The notes below the pieces were generated by a model. The model saw only the letters and a program-made list of their open reading frames with translations. It was not told the DNA's origin and did not search any database. Shown one piece after another: positions 9,079 through 20,013 of a DNA stretch of 64,000 nucleotides (position 1 is its first letter; every line of letters begins with the position of its first letter). Origin of the DNA: Thermotoga sp. Ku-13t (GTDB lineage: Bacteria > Thermotogota > Thermotogae > Thermotogales > DSM-5069); the NCBI RefSeq assembly GCF_011057685.1, contig NZ_LNFY01000001.1, positions 310,001-374,000 of the forward strand, given 5' to 3'. The position numbers and the translations under genes are program-made.

Positions 9079-10266
9079 TCACTGGCCAGCTCGTCGAATC
9101 GCTTCGATCAATCTCACAACGTGCACGTTTTCTTTGACATCGTGTACTCTGACTATGTCGGCACCGTTCAGAACACAGTAAGCCGTCACCGCGAGTGTGC
9201 CGTACAACCTTTCTTCGGGCGGCACATTGTCCAGGACCTGACCGATGAAAGACTTCCTTGAGGCTCCAACCAGTACAGGTTTTTTCAGGCTCTTGAACTC
9301 AGAGATGCGTTTTATTATCTCGAGGTTGTCCATGAGCCTTTTACCGAAACCTATTCCAGGATCAATGATGACCCTGTCCCCCAGGCCAATTTCTCTGACC
9401 TTCTCGATCCTCTCTTTGAGGAAGTAGAGAATCTCTCTCACGACATCTCCGTAATACGGATTTTCCTGCATGGTCTTGGGTTCGCCCTTCATGTGCATCA
9501 AAACGATGCCAGGTTTGTATTGCTTGAGGACTTCGATCATCATGGGATCGAACCTCAGCGCACTCACATCGTTGACGATTTCTGCGCCTGCTCTGATCGC
9601 TTCCTCGGCAACTTTCGCTTTGTACGTGTCCACGGAGACGATGACGTCGAAATTCTTCTTGACGAGTTCGACAGCCGGAACAACCCTGTTGAGTTCCTCT
9701 TCCAAGCTGACCCTTTCCGAACCGGGCCTGGTCGATTCACCACCGATGTCGATGATGTCGACACCTTCTTCCACCATTCTCGCGACAGAATCGAGCAGCT
9801 TATCCTTCTCGACCCGGCTCGCCGCATAGAAAGAATCAGGAGTGACATTCACAATACCCATGATCAGCGGTCTTTCAAAACTCATCTTTCGACCAGATGG
9901 CAGTTCGATCTGACGTGTTCCCTCCTCGAAAAGACAGTACTTTATGTCTCGAGCTATCTCGTCCAGTTTCCAGTAATGCATCATGGAGAGTTTTTCCACG
10001 AGTTTTCTGTGCTGTGCGAGCGTTCCCATTGTTAGAACGTTGGTTGACTCAACTTTCTGAGTGATCGAATGCTTGTGGACTGCCGCATCTCCACCCGCGG
10101 CGAGCATCTCCTGCTTGATCACGTTCGCGCTGATCACCGGAACATCGTAGATCAACAGGCTGACGAATTCGCCCTTGTTCTGGAAAATGGGTATCGAAGC
10201 CGGATCGACTCCAACTCTCGAAAGATGCTCAATCGGGTTGGTCACTCTCGTCACCAGAAAACTCAT
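9079..10266 (-). CDS. folP: Dihydropteroate synthase with N-terminal extension
   Basis: A 395-residue enzyme that joins p-aminobenzoate to the pterin diphosphate in folate synthesis. The catalytic TIM barrel begins near residue 130 (LIMGIVNVTPDSFY) and continues with DIGGESTRPGSE, VSVDTYK, NDVSA, LMHMKG, DPGIGFGK, LVGASRKSFIG and RVHDV, the classic DHPS signatures. The first ~125 residues are an extra domain not found in short E. coli-type FolP, seen in some clostridial and Thermotogota forms. It overlaps the upstream NUDIX gene, so the two are cotranscribed. Confidence 0.93.
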   Translation of the reverse strand: MSFLVTRVTNPIEHLSRVGVDPASIPIFQNKGEFVSLLIYDVPVISANVIKQEMLAAGGDAAVHKHSITQKVESTNVLTMGTLAQHRKLVEKLSMMHYWKLDEIARDIKYCLFEEGTRQIELPSGRKMSFERPLIMGIVNVTPDSFYAASRVEKDKLLDSVARMVEEGVDIIDIGGESTRPGSERVSLEEELNRVVPAVELVKKNFDVIVSVDTYKAKVAEEAIRAGAEIVNDVSALRFDPMMIEVLKQYKPGIVLMHMKGEPKTMQENPYYGDVVREILYFLKERIEKVREIGLGDRVIIDPGIGFGKRLMDNLEIIKRISEFKSLKKPVLVGASRKSFIGQVLDNVPPEERLYGTLAVTAYCVLNGADIVRVHDVKENVHVVRLIEAIRRAGQ

Positions 10267-10753
10267 TTCTGCAACCCTCCAGTAGCTGTTCTATTTTGCC
10301 CAGTGAATCTTTCACGATCCTCGCCGTGGCACCCCATATGACCAGGCCATCGATCACGAACTTGCACGTTTTTCGACCGTCCGGGAACGTCACCTCATCA
10401 CATTTGGCTTCTTTGAGCTGAGACAGTGCGACGAAGTAAAGATCCTGGACTTCGAACGTGTTCAGTTTGAAGTGTGGTCTTTCTATCACAACTAAAAGCG
10501 CCTGCACGAAAAGGTTCGATTTACCTGTGACGGTTGAAGACAGCTCACCTAAGAACTTGCAATTGTTTCTTGGTACACCTAGCTCTTCTTCGAGTTCCCG
10601 AAACATCGCTTCGGTGAGTGTTTCTTCGTTTTCGACTATGCCTCCAGGAAAGGCGATCTGGTTTGCGTGCCTGCTCAGTCTGCGCGATCTGCGTATGAAG
10701 ACAAGGTATGGTTTTTCTTCGATGAAAACGATTGGGACAGCAACCACTGACAT
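10229..10753 (-). CDS. NUDIX hydrolase, CoA-diphosphatase (NudL-like)
   Basis: A 174-residue cytoplasmic hydrolase of nucleoside diphosphate derivatives. The NUDIX box G-x5-E-x7-REUxEExGU is complete (GGIVENEETLTEAMFRELEE, then ELGV, about 38-61). It is preceded by the RRSRRLSRHANQIAFPGG pattern typical of the UPF0035/CoA pyrophosphatase group. ATG 10753 follows GGTGAG by 8 bases; an adjacent TTG (10756) is possible. Its 3' end overlaps folP by 38 bases. Confidence 0.88.
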   Translation of the reverse strand: MSVVAVPIVFIEEKPYLVFIRRSRRLSRHANQIAFPGGIVENEETLTEAMFRELEEELGVPRNNCKFLGELSSTVTGKSNLFVQALLVVIERPHFKLNTFEVQDLYFVALSQLKEAKCDEVTFPDGRKTCKFVIDGLVIWGATARIVKDSLGKIEQLLEGCRNEFSGDESDQPD

Positions 10754-10773
10754 CAATTCAGCTCACCATATTG

Positions 10774-10832: not shown

Positions 10833-10861
10833 TTGACGTGGGCTGTTTGTGGTGTTAAGAT
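10833..10861 (+). promoter_or_regulatory. Promoter of the opine dehydrogenase-mutase-ligase operon
   Basis: TTGACG (10833-10838), a 17-base spacer and TAAGAT (10856-10861) precede the strong GGAGGTGA ribosome binding site at 10879-10886 and the ATG at 10892. Confidence 0.75.
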
Positions 10862-10891
10862 TGTAATGAATTTGACACGGAGGTGACATGC

Positions 10892-11974
10892 ATGAAAATC
10901 TGCGTGATCGGCGCGGGTAATGGCGGACAAGCACTTGCAGGTTACCTTGCATTGAAAGGCTTCGATGTTTCTCTGTTCAACAGGTCTGAAAGAAGGATCT
11001 TACCCATCATGAAAACGAGGAAGATCAAGCTAGAAGGAGAGGTCAATGCCACAGCTCAGGTTTCTTTCGCCACTACAAACCTCGCAGAAGCGGTCAAAGG
11101 AAGAAAGCTTCTCATGGTTGTCGTTCCGGCCAATGCGCACAGAGAAATAGCCGAAAAGTTGGCTCCATTGCTCGAAGATGGACAGATCATCGTGTTGAAT
11201 CCCGGCAGGACCGCGGGTGCTCTGGAGTTCGTTAACGTTCTTAAAGAGAAAGGTGTGAAAAAAGATGTGGTGGTCGCGGAAGCTCAGACGTTCATCTTCG
11301 CTTCACGCATGTCCAACCCCGGCGTGGTGCGCATCTTCAGGATCAAAAATGCTGTACCCGTGGCAGCTTTGCCTGCATCGAGAAATACGGATCTTGAAGA
11401 GACACTTCTGAAAGTGATGCCAGAATTCGAGATCGCCCCGAGTACGCTTTACACGAGTTTCAACAATATTGGAGCCGTTTTTCACCCTGCAACAATCATT
11501 CTGAACGCGGGCTGGGTAGAAACCACGTTTGGAAAGTTCGAATTCTACTTCGAAGGCATAAGCCAGTCGGTGGCAAAAGTTCTTGAAGCCATCGATGAAG
11601 AAAGGTGTGCGGTTGCGAGGAAATTCGGGATCGAACCGATGACGGCAGTGCAGTGGCTCTTTTACGCGTACGATGTAAAAGGTAGAGATCTTTACGAAGC
11701 CATTCACAACAACGAAGGTTACAGAGGCATTCAGGCGCCCACAAGCCTGGAAAACAGATACATCTTGGAGGACGTTCCGACCAGCCTTGTTCCGATCTCG
11801 GCCTTCGGCAGATTAGTCAACGTTGAAACACCCACGATAGATTCCATTGTGAGACTGGCATCCATCATGATGGGTATCGACTTCTTCAAAGAAGGTAGAA
11901 ACTTCGAAAGGCTTCACCTTGAAGGCAAAACCATCGAAGAGGTTAAACGCATCATGGAGGAGGGATGGCAATGA
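10892..11974 (+). CDS. Octopine/nopaline (opine) dehydrogenase-family protein
   Basis: A 360-residue predicted NAD(P)-dependent enzyme of the opine dehydrogenase family, which joins an amino acid to a 2-oxo acid by reductive amination or runs the reverse. The Rossmann motif GAGNGGQALAGYLA is at about 7-20. The C-terminal helical domain carries the family's histidine in VFHPATIILNAG (about 195-205) and the late motif TSLVPISAFGRLVNV. ATG 10892 follows GGAGGTGA by 5 bases. It is the first gene of a tight operon: the mutase-like gene starts inside its stop codon. The true substrates are unknown. Confidence 0.85.
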   Translation: MKICVIGAGNGGQALAGYLALKGFDVSLFNRSERRILPIMKTRKIKLEGEVNATAQVSFATTNLAEAVKGRKLLMVVVPANAHREIAEKLAPLLEDGQIIVLNPGRTAGALEFVNVLKEKGVKKDVVVAEAQTFIFASRMSNPGVVRIFRIKNAVPVAALPASRNTDLEETLLKVMPEFEIAPSTLYTSFNNIGAVFHPATIILNAGWVETTFGKFEFYFEGISQSVAKVLEAIDEERCAVARKFGIEPMTAVQWLFYAYDVKGRDLYEAIHNNEGYRGIQAPTSLENRYILEDVPTSLVPISAFGRLVNVETPTIDSIVRLASIMMGIDFFKEGRNFERLHLEGKTIEEVKRIMEEGWQ

Positions 11975-13626
11975 AAATGATCGGCGCTTCAATTGGTAGT
12001 TGCGTTCACAACGTCGGCTTGCTCAACTTTCTCAATCTGGCAAGGCAGAACGGTTATGAAACGGTATACGTAGGTTCTGCCATCCCGGTGGAGAAGCTCG
12101 TGGAAGAGATCGAAAAACACCAGCCGGATGTGGTAGCGATGAGTTACAGGTTGGGAGCGGAGGCACTGCGGAATTTGCTCGAAACGCTGGAAGACCTGTT
12201 AAAAGCGCGAGGGTTGCTGGATAAGACTTACATATTCGGTGGAACCGTAGAAACAGCTGAAGCGGCAAGAAGATTCAGCTTCATAAAGAAAGCTTTCGAC
12301 GGGAGTGAAGAACTGGACGAAATCGTTATGTTCTTGAGGGGCGAAGCCAGAAAGTTGCAGAAACAGGAAGTGTTCCCACAGAGACTGGGTGAGAGGATTA
12401 AGTTCAAAAGTCCTTTTCCTCTGATACGCCATCATATTGGTTTGCAAACGCTTGAAGAGACCATCGAGGAGATAAAGAAAATGGCGGAGTCGCAGCTTCT
12501 TGATGTCATATCGATCGCACCTGATCAGAACTGCCAGCAATTCTTTTTTGAACCGGAGAAGATGGATCCAAAGCAAGATGGCGCCGGAGGGGCGCCAATA
12601 AGAACGAGGGAAGATTTTGTGAGACTGTACGAGGCCAGCAGGAGGGGAAACTATCCGCTTGTCAGATGCTACGCAGGTACGACGCACATGGTCGAGTTCT
12701 CGAAACTCTTGAAGGAAACCATCAACAACGCTTGGGCTGCAATACCGATCATGTGGTACAGCGATCTTGACAGACGCTCGAACAGACCACTGTTAGAAGC
12801 TATAAAGGAGAACATGGAGGCGATTCGCTGGAATGCTGAAAACGATGTCCCTGTCGAAGTCACGGACTCTCATCAGTGGGCTCTGAGGCTGGCACACGAC
12901 GCTGTTGAAGTTGCCACAGCGTATCTTGCCACGTTCATTGCAAAACGACTTGAAGTGAGAGAGTACGTGCAACAATTCATGCTGGAGACACCTTCTGGAA
13001 TTTCACCAAGGGCCGATCTGGCGAAAATGATTGCGAAGAGAGAACTGGTAGAAAGGCTTGCTGACGAGAACTTCAAAGTTTACCGGATGATAAGAACAGG
13101 GCTGATGTCGATGCCCGCAGATCACAACGCGGCGATGGGACAGATCGGTGTATCCATGTTCTACGGCATGGCGCTTGAACCGCACATCGTCCACGTGGTA
13201 GCGTACTGCGAATCCACGAAGAGAGCCACAGCAAAGGAGATCATAGAGAGCGTGAAGATCGCAAGGAGGGCCATAAACATGGCGTTACGGGGATGCGTTG
13301 ATCCTCTGGCAGATCCGTGGGTGAGGGGTGAGAAAGAAAGGATCAAAGAGGAGGCATTGCAGATAATCGAAGCGATAAAATCTCTCGGTGAGGGCAAGGA
13401 TGAGGATCTGCTCAGGCCAGAAATTCTCTTCGAAGCGGTTAGGACTGGAATCTTGGACGCTCCAGCCGTGAAAGGTTTCTCAGTGGCTAAGGGCAATGTG
13501 AAGACAGCTCTGATCGATGGACAGTGCAGGTGTGTCGACGAAGAAGGGAACTTGATCAGCGAAAAGGACAGACTGAAAAAATTGCTCGAGGAGGCTTGCA
13601 AGGATGAGAGTGGCTGTTGTTTATGA
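11971..13626 (+). CDS. Single-chain cobalamin-binding mutase-like protein (glutamate-mutase type)
   Basis: A 551-residue protein. Residues about 1-135 form a B12-binding Rossmann domain (MIGASIGSCVHNVGLLNFL) similar to glutamate mutase MutS. The usual D-x-H-x-x-G motif is C-x-H-x-x-G here: the cobalt-ligand histidine is kept and the aspartate is cysteine. Residues about 150-480 resemble the TIM barrel of MutE, with GAGGAPIRTREDF, RRGNYPLVRCYAGTT and HIVHVVAYCEST. It thus fuses both subunits in one chain. Its C-terminus is cysteine-rich (CRC...CKDESGCC). No MutL reactivase or methylaspartate ammonia-lyase is nearby. ATG 11971 follows GGAGGAGGG by 7 bases. Confidence 0.75.
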   Translation: MKMIGASIGSCVHNVGLLNFLNLARQNGYETVYVGSAIPVEKLVEEIEKHQPDVVAMSYRLGAEALRNLLETLEDLLKARGLLDKTYIFGGTVETAEAARRFSFIKKAFDGSEELDEIVMFLRGEARKLQKQEVFPQRLGERIKFKSPFPLIRHHIGLQTLEETIEEIKKMAESQLLDVISIAPDQNCQQFFFEPEKMDPKQDGAGGAPIRTREDFVRLYEASRRGNYPLVRCYAGTTHMVEFSKLLKETINNAWAAIPIMWYSDLDRRSNRPLLEAIKENMEAIRWNAENDVPVEVTDSHQWALRLAHDAVEVATAYLATFIAKRLEVREYVQQFMLETPSGISPRADLAKMIAKRELVERLADENFKVYRMIRTGLMSMPADHNAAMGQIGVSMFYGMALEPHIVHVVAYCESTKRATAKEIIESVKIARRAINMALRGCVDPLADPWVRGEKERIKEEALQIIEAIKSLGEGKDEDLLRPEILFEAVRTGILDAPAVKGFSVAKGNVKTALIDGQCRCVDEEGNLISEKDRLKKLLEEACKDESGCCL

Positions 13627-14518
13627 TCTCGATAATCTCGACGATGAGCGAAACAGAATGATAGAGGCTGTGTGTGAGGCTTTGTCGAAAGAACACAGTG
13701 TTGAGAAAATTCCCTTTGGTGATGACTTCGTTGAGCGTGTCAGGTCCTTCGAAGCGGTGTTCAACCTTTCCACGTCACACCTTCAAATGCACGTTCCAGC
13801 GGTACTCGATGTTTTGAAGATACCTTACACCGGATCTTCTGCCCTGGCGCACGCCCTCTGCACGGACAAGGTGATCACCAAGATCGTTCTGCAACATTAC
13901 GGGATACCCACACCGAGGTTTGTAATCTTCCAGCCAGGAGAGGAGCCAGCATCGATCGATTTCTTTCCCGCTATAGTCAAACCAACCAGGCAGGGTAGCG
14001 CGAAAGGAATCAATGTAGATTCTGTCGTTGCAGACGAACAGGCACTCAAAAAAGCTGTGAAACGGGTGCATGCGCTTTTCAAGGAACCAGCCCTCGTGGA
14101 AGAGTTCATAGATGGAAGGGAATTCAGCGTGGGTATTCTCGCGGGTCGCGTGTTACCGATACTGGAGATCGACTTTTCTACTCTACCTGAGGGCATTGAA
14201 CGGTTCTACTCTTACAGGGTTAAGCACTTCTTTGGCGAACAGACACGTTACATCTGTCCTGCAGAGATAAGCAAAGATCTTAAAATGGAGATCGAACGGT
14301 ACGCGATGAAGGCCTTCTGTGCTTTGAACCTCAGAAATTATGCTCGCATGGACTTGAGACTCAAAGGAAATGAGCCTTATTTTCTCGAGGTGAATTCCCT
14401 TCCCATGTTGACGCCGAATTACTCGGACGTAGTGAAAATGGCGCAGGCTGCAGGTTTGAGCTATGAAGAATTGATTCTTGAAATATTCAACGATGCCGTG
14501 AAAACAGCTGTCAGGTGA
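13604..14518 (+). CDS. ATP-grasp ligase related to D-alanine--D-alanine ligase
   Basis: A 304-residue ATP-dependent carboxylate-amine ligase. It has the order DKVITKIVLQHYGIPTPR (about 85-102), KPTRQGSAKGI (ATP loop, about 125-135), LVEEFIDGREFSVGI, and the metal-binding end ARMDLRLKGNEPYFLEVNSL (about 247-266). This matches Ddl, but the usual NTxPG(F/M)T end reads NSLPMLT. It overlaps the mutase gene by 23 bases and is preceded by GAGGAGG, so it acts with it. It is unlikely to be the cell-wall Ddl, given its metabolic neighbours; more likely it couples a non-protein amino acid. Confidence 0.82.
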   Translation: MRVAVVYDLDNLDDERNRMIEAVCEALSKEHSVEKIPFGDDFVERVRSFEAVFNLSTSHLQMHVPAVLDVLKIPYTGSSALAHALCTDKVITKIVLQHYGIPTPRFVIFQPGEEPASIDFFPAIVKPTRQGSAKGINVDSVVADEQALKKAVKRVHALFKEPALVEEFIDGREFSVGILAGRVLPILEIDFSTLPEGIERFYSYRVKHFFGEQTRYICPAEISKDLKMEIERYAMKAFCALNLRNYARMDLRLKGNEPYFLEVNSLPMLTPNYSDVVKMAQAAGLSYEELILEIFNDAVKTAVR

Positions 14519-15426: not shown

Positions 15427-15498
15427 CTTCCATTAACCCGTGTGTAAACGACCCCAACTTAGAATTTCGGTATATGAAAGTTGCAGGGGGGTAATTTC

Positions 15499-16818
15499 AT
15501 GCGAGTGGAAGACATTCTGAAGATTGTTGAGGAGGAACGCATCCAGTTCGTACGGTTGCAGTTCTCAGACATCAACGGGAACATCAAGAATGTGGAAATA
15601 CCATCTCAGGAACTGCCCAGAGCGTTTGAAAGAGGTATAATGTTCGATGGTTCATCCATTGAAGGCTTCGTGAGAATCGAGGAATCGGACATGTACCTGA
15701 GGCCGGATCCGGATACCTTTGCTATTTTGCCCTGGACGAATGACGGTATCAGGAGTGCGCGGTTGATCTGTGATGTGTACAAGCCAGATGGTACGCCTTT
15801 TGAGGGAGATCCCCGTTACAGATTGAAGCTAGTTGTGGAAAAGGCCAGAAAAATGGGTTTTGAACCTTACGCCGGTCCCGAGATGGAGTTCTTTGTGCTG
15901 CCCAGAGATCTCAAGGGATTTCCGGTGGCAGAAATTCTCGATCAGGGAAGTTACTTCGACCTACTACCACTCAATCAAGTCGAATCGCTGAGGAGTGAAG
16001 TGGCCGTCGCCTTGCGAACAATGGGTATAGAAGTGGAAGCATCACACCACGAGGTTGCACCTTCCCAGCACGAAGTAGATTTCCGCTACGGAGAGGTGTT
16101 GAAGACCGCAGACAACGCGCAAACCGTGAAGCTGGTTTTAAAAACGATCGCTATAAAGTACAACCTGCATGTGACGTTCATGCCAAAACCTTTCTTTGGA
16201 ATCAACGGTTCCGGTATGCATACACACCTGAGTTTGTTCAGAAATGGCGAAAATGCGTTTTACGATCCAAACGCCCCGGACGGTCTATCAAGGACTCTGT
16301 ATTATTTTGTGGGTGGGTTGCTCAAGCATGCAAAGGAGATCACAGCAGTCACGAATCCAACAGTGAACAGTTACAAGAGGCTGGTGCCGGGTTACGAAGC
16401 ACCAGTGAACATAGCGTGGTCGAAATCGAACAGGAGTGCGCTCATTAGGGTTCCAGCCGCAAGGGGTAAATCCACTAGGATCGAGTACAGGGCACCGGAT
16501 CCGAGCTGTAACGCATATCTCGCGTTCGCAGTCATAGTTGCTGCTGGACTGGATGGTATAGAAAAGAAAATAGAACCTCCTACGCCGATTGAAGAAAACA
16601 TCTATGCCATGAGTGAAGAGAGGAAAGCACAAAGTAGGATAGAATCTTTACCAGGATCGCTGAGAGACGCTCTGGAGGAAATGAAAGAATCCTCTCTGGT
16701 CAGGGAGGTTCTGGGAGAGCACATATTCAAAAAGTTTCTGGATCTTAAGAAGAGGGAATGGAGAGATTTCAGCATCGCTGTGACGGATTGGGAAATCAGA
16801 AGGTATCTTCAGGTGTAA
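15499..16818 (+). CDS. glnA: Glutamine synthetase, type I (alpha subgroup)
   Basis: A 439-residue enzyme making glutamine from glutamate, ammonia and ATP. Signatures: FDGSSIEGF near residue 50, GPEMEFFV, the metal/ATP motif GSGMHTHLSLF, NPTVNSYKRLVPGYEAPV and RAPDPSCNAYLAFA. The length and the C-terminal region, which lacks the NLYDLP-type adenylylation tyrosine motif, place it in the GSI-alpha group. ATG 15499 is preceded by a G6 run 7 bases upstream. The response regulator follows after a 31-base gap on the same strand. Confidence 0.95.
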   Translation: MRVEDILKIVEEERIQFVRLQFSDINGNIKNVEIPSQELPRAFERGIMFDGSSIEGFVRIEESDMYLRPDPDTFAILPWTNDGIRSARLICDVYKPDGTPFEGDPRYRLKLVVEKARKMGFEPYAGPEMEFFVLPRDLKGFPVAEILDQGSYFDLLPLNQVESLRSEVAVALRTMGIEVEASHHEVAPSQHEVDFRYGEVLKTADNAQTVKLVLKTIAIKYNLHVTFMPKPFFGINGSGMHTHLSLFRNGENAFYDPNAPDGLSRTLYYFVGGLLKHAKEITAVTNPTVNSYKRLVPGYEAPVNIAWSKSNRSALIRVPAARGKSTRIEYRAPDPSCNAYLAFAVIVAAGLDGIEKKIEPPTPIEENIYAMSEERKAQSRIESLPGSLRDALEEMKESSLVREVLGEHIFKKFLDLKKREWRDFSIAVTDWEIRRYLQV

Positions 16819-16849
16819 AAAGTGCTAAACTATTACGTTGTGGACGAAT

Positions 16850-17461
16850 ATGGCGAACATACTGGTAGTAGATGACGAGAGGAATGTGAGAAACATCATC
16901 AGGAAAATTCTTGAAGAGAACGAGCACACTGTCACCACGATCGCCACGGGCGAGGAAGCACTCGTGGAGCTACGAAGATCAAAGTTCGATCTGCTCATCC
17001 TTGATTTAAAGCTCCCCGGCATGTCCGGTACTGAACTGCTGAGACGAATGAGACAGGAAGGTATAGAGTTGCCGACACTGATAGTTTCCGCCATCACCAC
17101 CGCGGCTCCCGTAGTTGAAGCGATGAAACAAGGCGCCAGCGATTATCTTTCAAAACCCTTCTCGGCGCAGGACCTTCTGAGAAAAGTCGGAGAACTTCTG
17201 AGTGCGGAACAGCTCAGCTTCGAAAGGCTCGCTCGTTTGATCGAAGAAAAGCTCGAACAGGGTAAACTCGTCGTGGCTGAAAAACTCGCGCGTGAACTGT
17301 TCATGATAAGACCCGATGCGGAAGCTCATTTCATTTACGCGACCGTGATGGAAAGACTGGGCAACAAGGAACTTGCCTACAAACACCTCAAGGCTGCGCT
17401 GGCGCTCGATCCAGAGCACAGGAGGGTGCTGAAGGAGATCGCGAAATATGAGGAAAGCTGA
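16850..17461 (+). CDS. Response regulator with helical-repeat (TPR-like) output domain
   Basis: A 203-residue protein. Residues 1-120 are a CheY-like receiver: acidic pocket DDE near 8-10, phospho-acceptor D52 in LILDLKLPGMSG, and lysine K102 in LSKPF. The rest (about 121-203) is helical with a TPR-like repeat (AEAHFIYATVMERLGNKELAYKHLKAAL) and no DNA-binding domain. It has no adjacent histidine kinase. ATG 16850 has no clear ribosome binding site. Its end overlaps the first TrkA-like gene by 14 bases, which hints at a link to potassium uptake. Confidence 0.85.
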   Translation: MANILVVDDERNVRNIIRKILEENEHTVTTIATGEEALVELRRSKFDLLILDLKLPGMSGTELLRRMRQEGIELPTLIVSAITTAAPVVEAMKQGASDYLSKPFSAQDLLRKVGELLSAEQLSFERLARLIEEKLEQGKLVVAEKLARELFMIRPDAEAHFIYATVMERLGNKELAYKHLKAALALDPEHRRVLKEIAKYEES

Positions 17462-17873
17462 GTCACTCTACATTGTGATCGTGGGTTGTGGACGTATCGG
17501 TTCGATCGTCGCAACGAAGCTCTCGGTCTCCGGCAGCAACGTGGTCGTCATAGATTCGGACGAAACGGCCCTTGAGAGCTTGCCTGAGGAGTTCACGGGA
17601 TTCAAGCTCATCGGAGACGTGACTGAGATCTCGGTGCTGAGAGACGCAAAGCTCGACAAGGCGGACGTACTCCTGGCGCTCACAGGGGACGATAACACAA
17701 ACTTCATGGTCGCGAGCGTTGCCAAGAGGTTTTTCGGCGTGAAGAGGGTCATCGCGCGTGTGAACGAACCGGCGAACGAAGACATCTTCAAAGAATTCGA
17801 TATCGAGATCGTATCGCCAACGCGGCTTGCAGCGATGAAAGTCTTGTCCGAATTAGGGGTGCACGAAACTTGA
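17448..17873 (+). CDS. TrkA-N (RCK_N) potassium-uptake regulatory subunit
   Basis: A 141-residue cytoplasmic protein made of a single RCK N-domain: VGCGRIGSIVATKL (about 13-26) binds the nucleotide, VVVIDSDE supplies the ribose-binding acid, and IEIVSPTRLAA ends the domain. It lacks an RCK_C domain. It overlaps the response regulator upstream and the second TrkA-like gene downstream by 4 bases. It probably assembles with that protein into a ring gating the TrkH channel at 18532-20013. Confidence 0.9.
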   Translation: MRKAESLYIVIVGCGRIGSIVATKLSVSGSNVVVIDSDETALESLPEEFTGFKLIGDVTEISVLRDAKLDKADVLLALTGDDNTNFMVASVAKRFFGVKRVIARVNEPANEDIFKEFDIEIVSPTRLAAMKVLSELGVHET

Positions 17874-18529
17874 AGGTAGTCATCATAGGTGGCCACAAGA
17901 TCGCGTACTATCTCGCTCGGATGATGATATCAAAGGGTTACCACGTCTACATAGTGAACAAAGATCCCCGTGCTTGCGAGCAGCTCGCGAAGAGTCTTTC
18001 TGCAGTTGTGATCCTCGGTGATGGGAGCAAGAAGAATGTGCTCGAGCAGCTCAGGCTCAGCAGCAAAGATCTTGTGGTCATACTGACGAACACCGACCGT
18101 GACAACCTCATAATCTCGCAGATGGTTCGCCATTACTATGGGGTGGAACGAATAGTCACGCTCGTGAATGATCCCGAAGATATAGAGATCTTTCACCGGC
18201 TGGGTGTGAAAGCGGCCGTGAGTCCAACTAACATCTTGCTCCAGACAATCCAGGGTCTATTGCTCGTCGACGAAATCGAAGAGTTCTCCATGGTTGAGGA
18301 AGGAAGGCTCGTTTTCCTTCGACTCGAGATACCTGAAACTTCTCCATCCGCTCACAAAAAGTTGAAGGAGATCCCTCTTCCAAACAGCTGTGTGATCGGT
18401 GCCATCATCAGGAACAACACAGTGGTCATACCCCGTGGAGAAGTCGAACTTCTTCCCGAAGATAGAGTGATGGTCCTGTGCGAGCCAAGCGTTCAATCTC
18501 AAGTGATACATTTACTTGTCGGTGAGTGA
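17870..18529 (+). CDS. trkA: TrkA-like protein with RCK_N and RCK_C domains
   Basis: A 219-residue cytoplasmic regulator. The RCK_N part (about 1-135) has a degenerate glycine motif (IIGGHKIAYYLA). The RCK_C part (about 140-219) contains LPNSCVIGAIIRNNTVVIPRG and LLPEDRVMVL. TTG 17870 is the start, overlapping the previous stop (TTGA). Because the glycine motif is weak here and good in the 141-residue partner, the two may form a hetero-ring in which only one subunit binds nucleotide well. Confidence 0.88.
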   Translation: MKVVIIGGHKIAYYLARMMISKGYHVYIVNKDPRACEQLAKSLSAVVILGDGSKKNVLEQLRLSSKDLVVILTNTDRDNLIISQMVRHYYGVERIVTLVNDPEDIEIFHRLGVKAAVSPTNILLQTIQGLLLVDEIEEFSMVEEGRLVFLRLEIPETSPSAHKKLKEIPLPNSCVIGAIIRNNTVVIPRGEVELLPEDRVMVLCEPSVQSQVIHLLVGE

Positions 18530-18531
18530 TT

Positions 18532-20013
18532 ATGAGATTGACGCTGCAGGAATACCGCGTTGTTTTCAGTACACTGAGTAAACTTTTGAGGTTTTTCTCT
18601 CTGATACTTCTTCTTCCTCTGGTGTGGATCTTTTCTGAACCCAGTTTCTTCCAGTGCATTCTGTCATTTTCGATACCTTCCGCTGTCGCGTTCATCTTCG
18701 GTTTTGTCTTGCAACGTTTCTCACACACTACGGAGTTTGAAGTCATAACCGTCAAAGAAGGAGCAGTGATCGTGCTCTTCTCCTGGACGACGGTCATAGT
18801 CCTCTCCGCTTTGCCTTACATGCTTTGTGGGTTGCTCAATTTCTCGCAAGCCATTTTTGAAGCTACGAGCGGCTGGACAACGACGGGCTTAACGATGTTT
18901 CCTGTGGTTGAGGCTCTTCCCAAGCCGGTGCTCTTCTGGAGGAGCTTAACCCAATATCTGGGGGGCGCAGGCTTCGCTGTCATAGTGATGAGTACGATCA
19001 TAGGTCCTACGGGCCTTGGTTTTTACCGGGCAGAAGGGCGTGTTGACAACATCGCACCAAACATAAGGCATTCAACAAGATTGATCGTCACCTACTATCT
19101 TCTGTACGCGGTCGCCGGAACGATCGCGTTGATGATCAGCGGGCTCAATCTCTTCGATGCGCTGAACCATTCTTTTACAGCACTCGCCACAGGTGGATTT
19201 TCGACGAAGAACAACAGCGTCGCAGCTTTCGATAACCTATCAACAGAGTTGATTCTGATGTTTCTCATGTTTCTCGGGTCTATCGGTTTCGGTATTCACC
19301 ATGCATTCTGGAGTAGAGACTGGCATGCGCTCAGAGAGAACAGTGAACCCAAGCAGATGATTGTGTTGATCCTGTTAGGTACTGTGTGTGTTTCTCTGGC
19401 GGGTGTTGGCAAAGTGTTTCCAACATTTTCAGACAGCTTGCGTCACAGCATTTTCCAAGTTGTCTCTGCCCTCACCGGGACAGGTTTTTCCACAGTAGAT
19501 CTAAAGTCGTGGCTCGGTTTTCCAACAGGTCTCTTCGTGCTTGTGGTTCTCATGCTGCTCGGAGGTTGTATGGATTCAACCTCAGGTGGTATAAAACAGT
19601 ACAGGCTCACTGTGCTCTTCAAAACGTTCAAAATGTCACTCAGAAAATTCCTGCTTCCAAAGACTTCTGTTGTATACGTAGAGATATGGAAAGGATCCGC
19701 CAAAAGGTATCTCGATCCTCAGCTCATCAGAGAAGCTTTCGTCACGAGCGCCGCGTACATCTTGTCCTATGTCCTGGGAGTATTGATGTTGACGTTCTAC
19801 GGTTACAGTTTGGGACAAGCAATGTTTGAGTTCGCATCGGCTCTCGCGGGGGTAGGGCTTTCGTGTGGAGTCACATCGCCAAATATGCCACTCGGCGCGA
19901 TGTGGACGTTGAGCGTCGGAATGTTCATGGGAAGGCTCGAATTCCTCGTCATCGTGTACGCACTGGCAAAGATCCTTTCGGACGCGTTCAGGTCATTTGC
20001 TAAGCAGGCTTGA
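18532..20013 (+). CDS. trkH: Trk potassium-uptake channel subunit TrkH
   Basis: A 493-residue inner-membrane K+ channel with the fourfold pore repeat; selectivity-filter segments are visible as TSGWTTTGLT, TALATGGFST, TGTGFSTVD and AGVGLSCGV. Size fits TrkH/KtrB. ATG 18532 follows GGTGAG by 5 bases; GTG 18526 is an in-frame alternative. It is the last gene of the run from glnA. Its 3' end overlaps the convergent beta-propeller gene by 21 bases, and I see no terminator hairpin there. Confidence 0.93.
   Translation: MRLTLQEYRVVFSTLSKLLRFFSLILLLPLVWIFSEPSFFQCILSFSIPSAVAFIFGFVLQRFSHTTEFEVITVKEGAVIVLFSWTTVIVLSALPYMLCGLLNFSQAIFEATSGWTTTGLTMFPVVEALPKPVLFWRSLTQYLGGAGFAVIVMSTIIGPTGLGFYRAEGRVDNIAPNIRHSTRLIVTYYLLYAVAGTIALMISGLNLFDALNHSFTALATGGFSTKNNSVAAFDNLSTELILMFLMFLGSIGFGIHHAFWSRDWHALRENSEPKQMIVLILLGTVCVSLAGVGKVFPTFSDSLRHSIFQVVSALTGTGFSTVDLKSWLGFPTGLFVLVVLMLLGGCMDSTSGGIKQYRLTVLFKTFKMSLRKFLLPKTSVVYVEIWKGSAKRYLDPQLIREAFVTSAAYILSYVLGVLMLTFYGYSLGQAMFEFASALAGVGLSCGVTSPNMPLGAMWTLSVGMFMGRLEFLVIVYALAKILSDAFRSFAKQA

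Follow-up and report, generated by a model that had tools for sequence, protein, structure and literature searches.

The three consecutive plus-strand genes described here, encoding an opine dehydrogenase (ODH), a one-chain vitamin B12 (cobalamin)-dependent mutase, and an ATP-grasp ligase resembling D-alanine-D-alanine ligase (Ddl), very likely make up a metabolic pathway of wide distribution, and its product is best read as an opine-type amino acid derivative. They lie in a 64,000-nucleotide stretch of the Thermotoga sp. Ku-13t genome (contig NZ_LNFY01000001.1, positions 310,001 to 374,000 of the forward strand), referred to as a whole as the window. Across 151 genomes, the mutase and ODH occurred in an identical set of 67, and neither was found in the remaining 84; the grouping of the two is not due to chance. 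ODH adjoined the mutase in 39 of 41 loci from the class Thermotogae and its relatives, in all 8 loci from further phyla, and in 76 of 78 loci from named genomes, archaea included, the named-genome set (80 loci) consisting of those nearest the query and not of a random sample. The ligase tracked this pair: in the comparison class of approximately 100 Thermotoga-type genomes, where the host genome (2.08 Mb) groups, a ligase orthologue was present in 54 of 65 mutase-positive versus 2 of 38 mutase-negative genomes (103 genomes), in some of them unlinked and far from the ODH/mutase pair. The original prediction, made from the sequence of the window, had proposed that the three genes belong together; a neighborhood search that could have returned no association instead gave co-presence in 67 of 67 genomes and the adjacency above, so that the observation is confirmed, while the interpretation attached to it is partly supported.

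At least 570 relatives, archaea included, were counted. The named-genome loci come, among bacteria, from Caldanaerobacter, Thermoanaerobacter, Thermoanaerobacterium (ODH and mutase in T. saccharolyticum, L160), Tepidanaerobacter, Halanaerobiales, Aminicenantes, Armatimonadota, Bacteroidota, Ignavibacteria, and Planctomycetota and, among archaea, from Methanoculleus and Theionarchaea. Gene order varies (ODH-mutase-ligase, ligase-ODH-mutase, or ODH-ligase-mutase) with linkage kept, and the identities of ODH and mutase correlate across 115 loci (r = 0.68). In one genome (G006), a 634-residue variant (29% identity) takes the place of the mutase beside an ODH and a ligase that are 82% and 66% identical, respectively; this in-place exchange next to orthologous partners implies that both mutase types are functionally equivalent.

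The association itself has been in print for some time. Zhang, Rodionov, Gelfand, and Gladyshev (2009; BMC Genomics 10:78, PMC2667541) predicted a novel B12-dependent protein family in 11 bacteria of four phyla, occurring in Thermotogae and Clostridia, that carries a distant B12-binding domain at its N terminus, is "always adjacent" to pfam02317, and in several organisms has a D-Ala:D-Ala ligase or asparagine synthase nearby; its function was not given. The genes of the window share the pfam02317 neighbor, the N-terminal B12 domain, and the ligase or asparagine synthase vicinity; as a pathway, the set was predicted before and is a functional orphan. The statement in the original prediction that no pathway with this trio had been described is therefore true of its function and not of its association. 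We found no later work assigning a function to the family in the literature searched, from which subscription journals were mostly outside, so a later paper may exist. New here are the adenosylcobalamin (AdoCbl)-mutase fold, the loss of the glutamate site (seen as active-site differences from the glutamate mutase chain GlmE), the exact co-occurrence, the alternation of interchangeable ligases, the 634-residue variant, and the spread to archaea.

The three family assignments made from the sequence were borne out by domain searches (PF02317 for ODH, PF02310 plus PF06368 for the mutase, and PF07478 for the ligase). In the mutase, the B12-binding domain (PF02310, E = 1e-12) covers residues 4 to 101, and the match to the MutE family is weak and partial (PF06368, E = 8e-8), with scores far under the curated NCBIfam cutoffs for both MutE (23.8 against 390.1) and MutS (14.4 against 110). 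An AlphaFold2 model based on 46 sequences (predicted local distance difference test [pLDDT], 92.6; predicted template modeling score [pTM], 0.84) had as its top Foldseek match in the PDB the glutamate mutase chain GlmE (1cb7_B; E = 4.7e-17; template modeling score by target length, 0.66), followed by ornithine 4,5-aminomutase (OraE), lysine 5,6-aminomutase (KamD), and methylmalonyl-CoA mutase with related CoA mutases; hhalign comparison of the mutase family with GlmE as a single sequence yielded no significant score. This confident model places the protein among AdoCbl mutases, nearest glutamate mutase, in agreement with the earlier proposal of a single-chain B12 mutase that has a MutE-like barrel.

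The leading fold matches are AdoCbl enzymes, which favors an AdoCbl mutase over a methyltransferase. At the sequence level, the N-terminal domain comes closest to corrinoid methyltransferase proteins and MetH, and the 2009 paper compared its family with COG5012 of methyltransferases (PMC2667541), but a role of the B12 protein as corrinoid methyltransferase or carrier is highly improbable, given that AdoCbl mutases rank first when the whole chain is searched by fold and that the barrel aligns with GlmE, including an invariant position at GlmE E330. Use of AdoCbl, which we infer for the mutase, would be compatible with the host's gene content: a CobA/BtuR adenosyltransferase is encoded (E = 1e-65), and a PduO-type adenosyltransferase is absent from the host, so that the host is predicted to be able to adenosylate cobalamin via CobA/BtuR. 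In two archaeal loci, cobA lies upstream of the system.

Glutamate, in turn, should not be the substrate of this glutamate-mutase-like fold. In a joint MAFFT alignment of GlmE (reference sequence verified against the PDB), 49 family members, and the 634-residue variants, two of the three arginines of the glutamate "arginine claw" are replaced in 49 of 49 family members, R66 by His and R100 by Gln, and K326 is replaced by Val, whereas E330 is retained in all 49. The protein has the TIM barrel and Rossmann B12 domain of GlmE/GlmS (1cb7) but differs from them in being a single chain with the B12 domain at its N terminus and in its B12 motif, which in the main family is CxHxxG, with the His invariant and the Cys in at least 90% of sequences (alignment A3); longer variants of 632 to 634 residues that stand in for the main form, likewise beside an ODH (L069:7925-9829, L070:3640-5541, and L109:8197-10095) have the canonical DxHxxG. 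A fused glutamate mutase that converts glutamate to 3-methylaspartate, from which ODH and ligase would then build an opine or dipeptide, is thus very unlikely: the nearest fold, the partial PF06368 match, and the retained E330 would fit it, but R66, R100, and K326 are lost, the scores fall far below the MutE and MutS cutoffs, and the motif is CxHxxG rather than DxHxxG. The glutamate-mutase-type substrates first envisaged (methylaspartate) are accordingly unsupported. OraE and lysine 5,6-aminomutase, the next best folds, also combine an AdoCbl barrel with a B12 domain, but theirs is C-terminal, and the pyridoxal phosphate (PLP)-binding lysine of OraE (K629, a number that matches the chain) sits within a 4-residue insertion that the mutase lacks. 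With R66 and R100 replaced family-wide and no PLP-lysine, the protein probably belongs neither to the glutamate mutases nor to the ornithine/lysine aminomutases. A search for glutamate mutase in the relatives with TIGR01503 gave no match, but the control was also silent, so absence is not established; one true MutE was found in another phylum.

The ODH carries a Rossmann domain and an Octopine_DH domain (PF02317; 163.7 bits against a cutoff of 30), and its best PDB match is N-(1-D-carboxylethyl)-L-norvaline dehydrogenase (CENDH; 1bg6), with 40% identity across 349 residues. The His/Asp catalytic pair of CENDH (H202 and D297) is conserved in 120 and 119, respectively, of 120 ODHs of the system. 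Reductive coupling of an amino acid to a 2-oxo acid is the predicted activity. The enzyme differs from CENDH in being an obligate mutase partner and in two near-invariant arginines: R34, part of an FNRS/YNRS motif, at the site of Asp/Ile in CENDH (an NAD-type acidic motif, with Ile opposite the arginine), and R109, in NPGRT, where CENDH has Ala. By analogy with 6-phosphogluconate dehydrogenase, the R34 motif suggests use of NADP(H). In one genome (G276; L111:3135-4736), a system ODH is fused behind an N-terminal phosphotransferase system EIIA_2 domain (PF00359, E = 1.4e-29), hinting at control by that system.

The ligase shares the ATP-grasp core of D-alanine-D-alanine ligase (PF07478; 111.8 bits against a cutoff of 24) but falls under every curated Ddl cutoff (best model, 176 against 243 bits) and lacks the Ddl motif GGxSxE. 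Among 44 ligases encoded near the mutase, the motif was present in only one, a divergent canonical Ddl neighbor; the host genome also encodes a separate canonical Ddl with GGxSxE. On host contig C10 (L073:1075-2109), yet another Ddl-like ATP-grasp protein, the third in the host, is encoded; it lacks the motif as well, and its relatives occur in most members of the genus, including one that lacks the operon (G003).

Elsewhere, the third gene is of another type. An AsnB-like gene is present in 21 of 78 named loci, often after the mutase where the Ddl-like ligase is missing (as in Caldanaerobacter, L120), and the two never occur at the same locus (0 cases). Most of these AsnB-like proteins have about 445 residues and start with M-S/A/P/I-GIAGI rather than MCGI, and thus lack the glutaminase Cys nucleophile; a few, e.g., in Thermoanaerobacter, still have this Cys and could simply be AsnB of the usual kind. 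They are nearest AsnB (E = 3e-48), ahead of CarA (6e-16) and beta-lactam synthetase (3e-13), and none lies within the window. Beta-lactam synthetase, which acts on N2-(2-carboxyethyl)arginine, likewise lacks the glutaminase Cys. It follows that the ligase, claimed as part of the system, does track the pair but is not a fixed component, being replaced by an AsnB-like enzyme in many lineages and sometimes unlinked. We consider it quite unlikely that the ligase is a peptidoglycan or general-metabolism paralogue that neighbors a two-gene ODH/mutase system by chance, as its lack of adjacency in several lineages might imply: the orthologue tracks the mutase even where unlinked, linkage persists despite changes in gene order, and the canonical Ddl of the host is a separate gene.

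With modest confidence, we favor a dedicated three-step biosynthetic pathway composed of an AdoCbl mutase, a CENDH-like ODH, and an ATP-dependent ligase. The one-chain mutase would use AdoCbl to rearrange the skeleton of a non-glutamate amino acid or amino acid conjugate; ODH, probably with NADPH, would reductively couple a 2-oxo acid to the mutase product or to another amino acid, giving a secondary-amine dicarboxylate; and the ligase (of the Ddl-like type in the window and, in other lineages, of the AsnB-like type, which is mostly glutaminase-dead) would drive with ATP the formation of an amide between a carboxylate of the product and an amine. In this scheme, we infer the substrates, the order of the steps, the biosynthetic direction, and the product class. 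Each of the two third-gene types belongs to the ATP-dependent carboxylate-amine ligases, a point in favor of both an amide-forming step and the biosynthetic direction; the idea that an amide- or opine-type product is made rather than degraded appears to have been right. Opine dehydrogenases are reversible, B12 mutases usually serve fermentations, and many hosts of the system are anaerobic fermenters, all of which would suit a catabolic route in which N-carboxyalkyl amino acids are cleaved oxidatively by ODH, the amino acid set free is rearranged by the mutase for fermentation, and the ligase is accessory. Such a route is nevertheless unlikely, since an ATP-consuming ligase tracks the pair, the ODH motif is of the NADP type, and the loci examined show no recurrent lyase, thiolase, CoA transferase, or opine importer next to the pair.

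Several points weigh against the three-step biosynthetic pathway. The Fisher values for co-occurrence (1e-44 and 1e-15) ignore shared ancestry and are descriptive only; about half of the named loci have no adjacent ligase, which may mean that the third step varies or stands apart from the other two; and the lineages share no transporter, regulator, or riboswitch from which the product could be read. The NADPH preference of ODH rests on a single motif. GlmE R149, E171, Y177, and Y181 fall in a stretch unaligned by MAFFT, where their mapping is uncertain; strand register would put R149 on Cys235/Tyr236, beside the invariant Arg234.

The mutase might instead act on the opine itself (e.g., a 1-carboxyethyl to 2-carboxyethyl type of rearrangement), with the Ddl-like or glutaminase-dead AsnB-like enzyme then closing or adding the amide in a manner like that of beta-lactam synthetase; we regard this version as a doubtful one. 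If true, an N-carboxyalkyl amino acid would for the first time be the target of a B12 radical rearrangement, a new reaction type, and this would imply a new and widespread class of small molecules common to anaerobic bacteria and archaea. As for the favored three-step pathway, gene context has pointed since 2009 to a B12-dependent pathway, now counted in at least 570 species of prokaryotes, archaea among them, and its enzyme types are now narrowed to a non-glutamate AdoCbl mutase, an opine dehydrogenase, and interchangeable amide ligases. Such a pathway would extend the short list of AdoCbl mutase reactions and explain the B12 need of some organisms.

At the level of the locus (Table 1), sequence reading placed all three open reading frames on the plus strand where they had been predicted. 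GTG 10883 falls within the ribosome-binding site, which makes ATG 10892 the start of the ODH gene. An ATGA at 11971 probably holds the mutase start codon overlapping the ODH stop codon, which favors this start over 11965, and the mutase and ligase genes overlap by 23 nucleotides. A single promoter for all three genes, as originally proposed, is plausible, and pattern scanning found no plus-strand terminator in the locus region; the promoter-like matches in the region (6 versus 3.5 +/- 2.5 in shuffles) do not, for their part, rise above the shuffled background.

Table 1. Features of the ODH-mutase-ligase locus (positions are those of the window)
Feature	Position	Strand	Evidence
Candidate sigma-70 promoter, TTGACG-17-TAAGAT	10833..10861	+	Pattern scan
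Ribosome-binding site GGAGGTGA of ODH gene	10879..10886	+	Sequence reading
ODH gene (opine dehydrogenase family)	10892..11974	+	PF02317, E = 4e-48; CENDH 1bg6, E = 1.7e-76, identity 40%
ODH catalytic His codon (CENDH H202)	11483..11485	+	Kept in 120/120 system ODHs
ODH catalytic Asp codon (CENDH D297)	11771..11773	+	Kept in 119/120 system ODHs
One-chain B12 mutase gene	11971..13626 (open reading frame opens at 11965)	+	PF02310, PF06368; AlphaFold2 pLDDT 92.6; Foldseek GlmE
N-terminal B12-binding domain of mutase, CxHxxG for DxHxxG	11965..12354	+	PF02310; His invariant
Mutase His codon, expected cobalt ligand	12007..12009	+	Invariant alignment column H15
Glutamate-mutase-like TIM barrel of mutase	12367..13299	+	Model secondary structure, Foldseek, GlmE alignment
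Mutase Glu codon, equivalent of GlmE E330	13210..13212	+	49/49 family members
Ddl-like ATP-grasp ligase gene, without GGxSxE	13604..14518	+	PF07478, E = 4e-32; under Ddl cutoffs

A fourth conserved partner was sought and rejected, as neighbors are lineage-specific and none recurs across phyla; examples are a YheO-type regulator in Thermoanaerobacter and CBS and Na+/H+ antiporter genes in Desantisbacteria. No riboswitches or other RNA families were found in 20 loci or in the whole window. A thermoprotectant role was likewise unsupported, the gene set being present also in Bacteroidota/Ignavibacteria and no Octopine_DH match being found in the Thermotoga maritima control. Among the lineage-specific arrangements, a TldD/TldE (PmbA) pair lies directly 3' of the mutase in Aminicenantes (L141:9620-12393, PF19289, E = 2e-64; also L144, L146, L159, L163, and L193). 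By eye, the mutase lies just 5' of an apparent V-type ATPase operon in nine Bacillota genomes (L129, L131, L134, L135, L149, L156, L157, L162, and L183), and a domain like that of cyclic-nucleotide-binding regulators is fused to or follows the mutase in Halanaerobiales (L194:7989-10244; L165:9535-10308). Downstream of the ligase gene, the window carries genes for glutamine synthetase, a response-regulator-like protein, and a K+ uptake set (TrkA_N, TrkA, and TrkH; 15481-20010), a synteny kept only among close relatives. Upstream, divergent on the minus strand (9079-10756), are genes for a NUDIX hydrolase and a dihydropteroate synthase-like protein (Pterin_bind) that has a long extra stretch at its N terminus.

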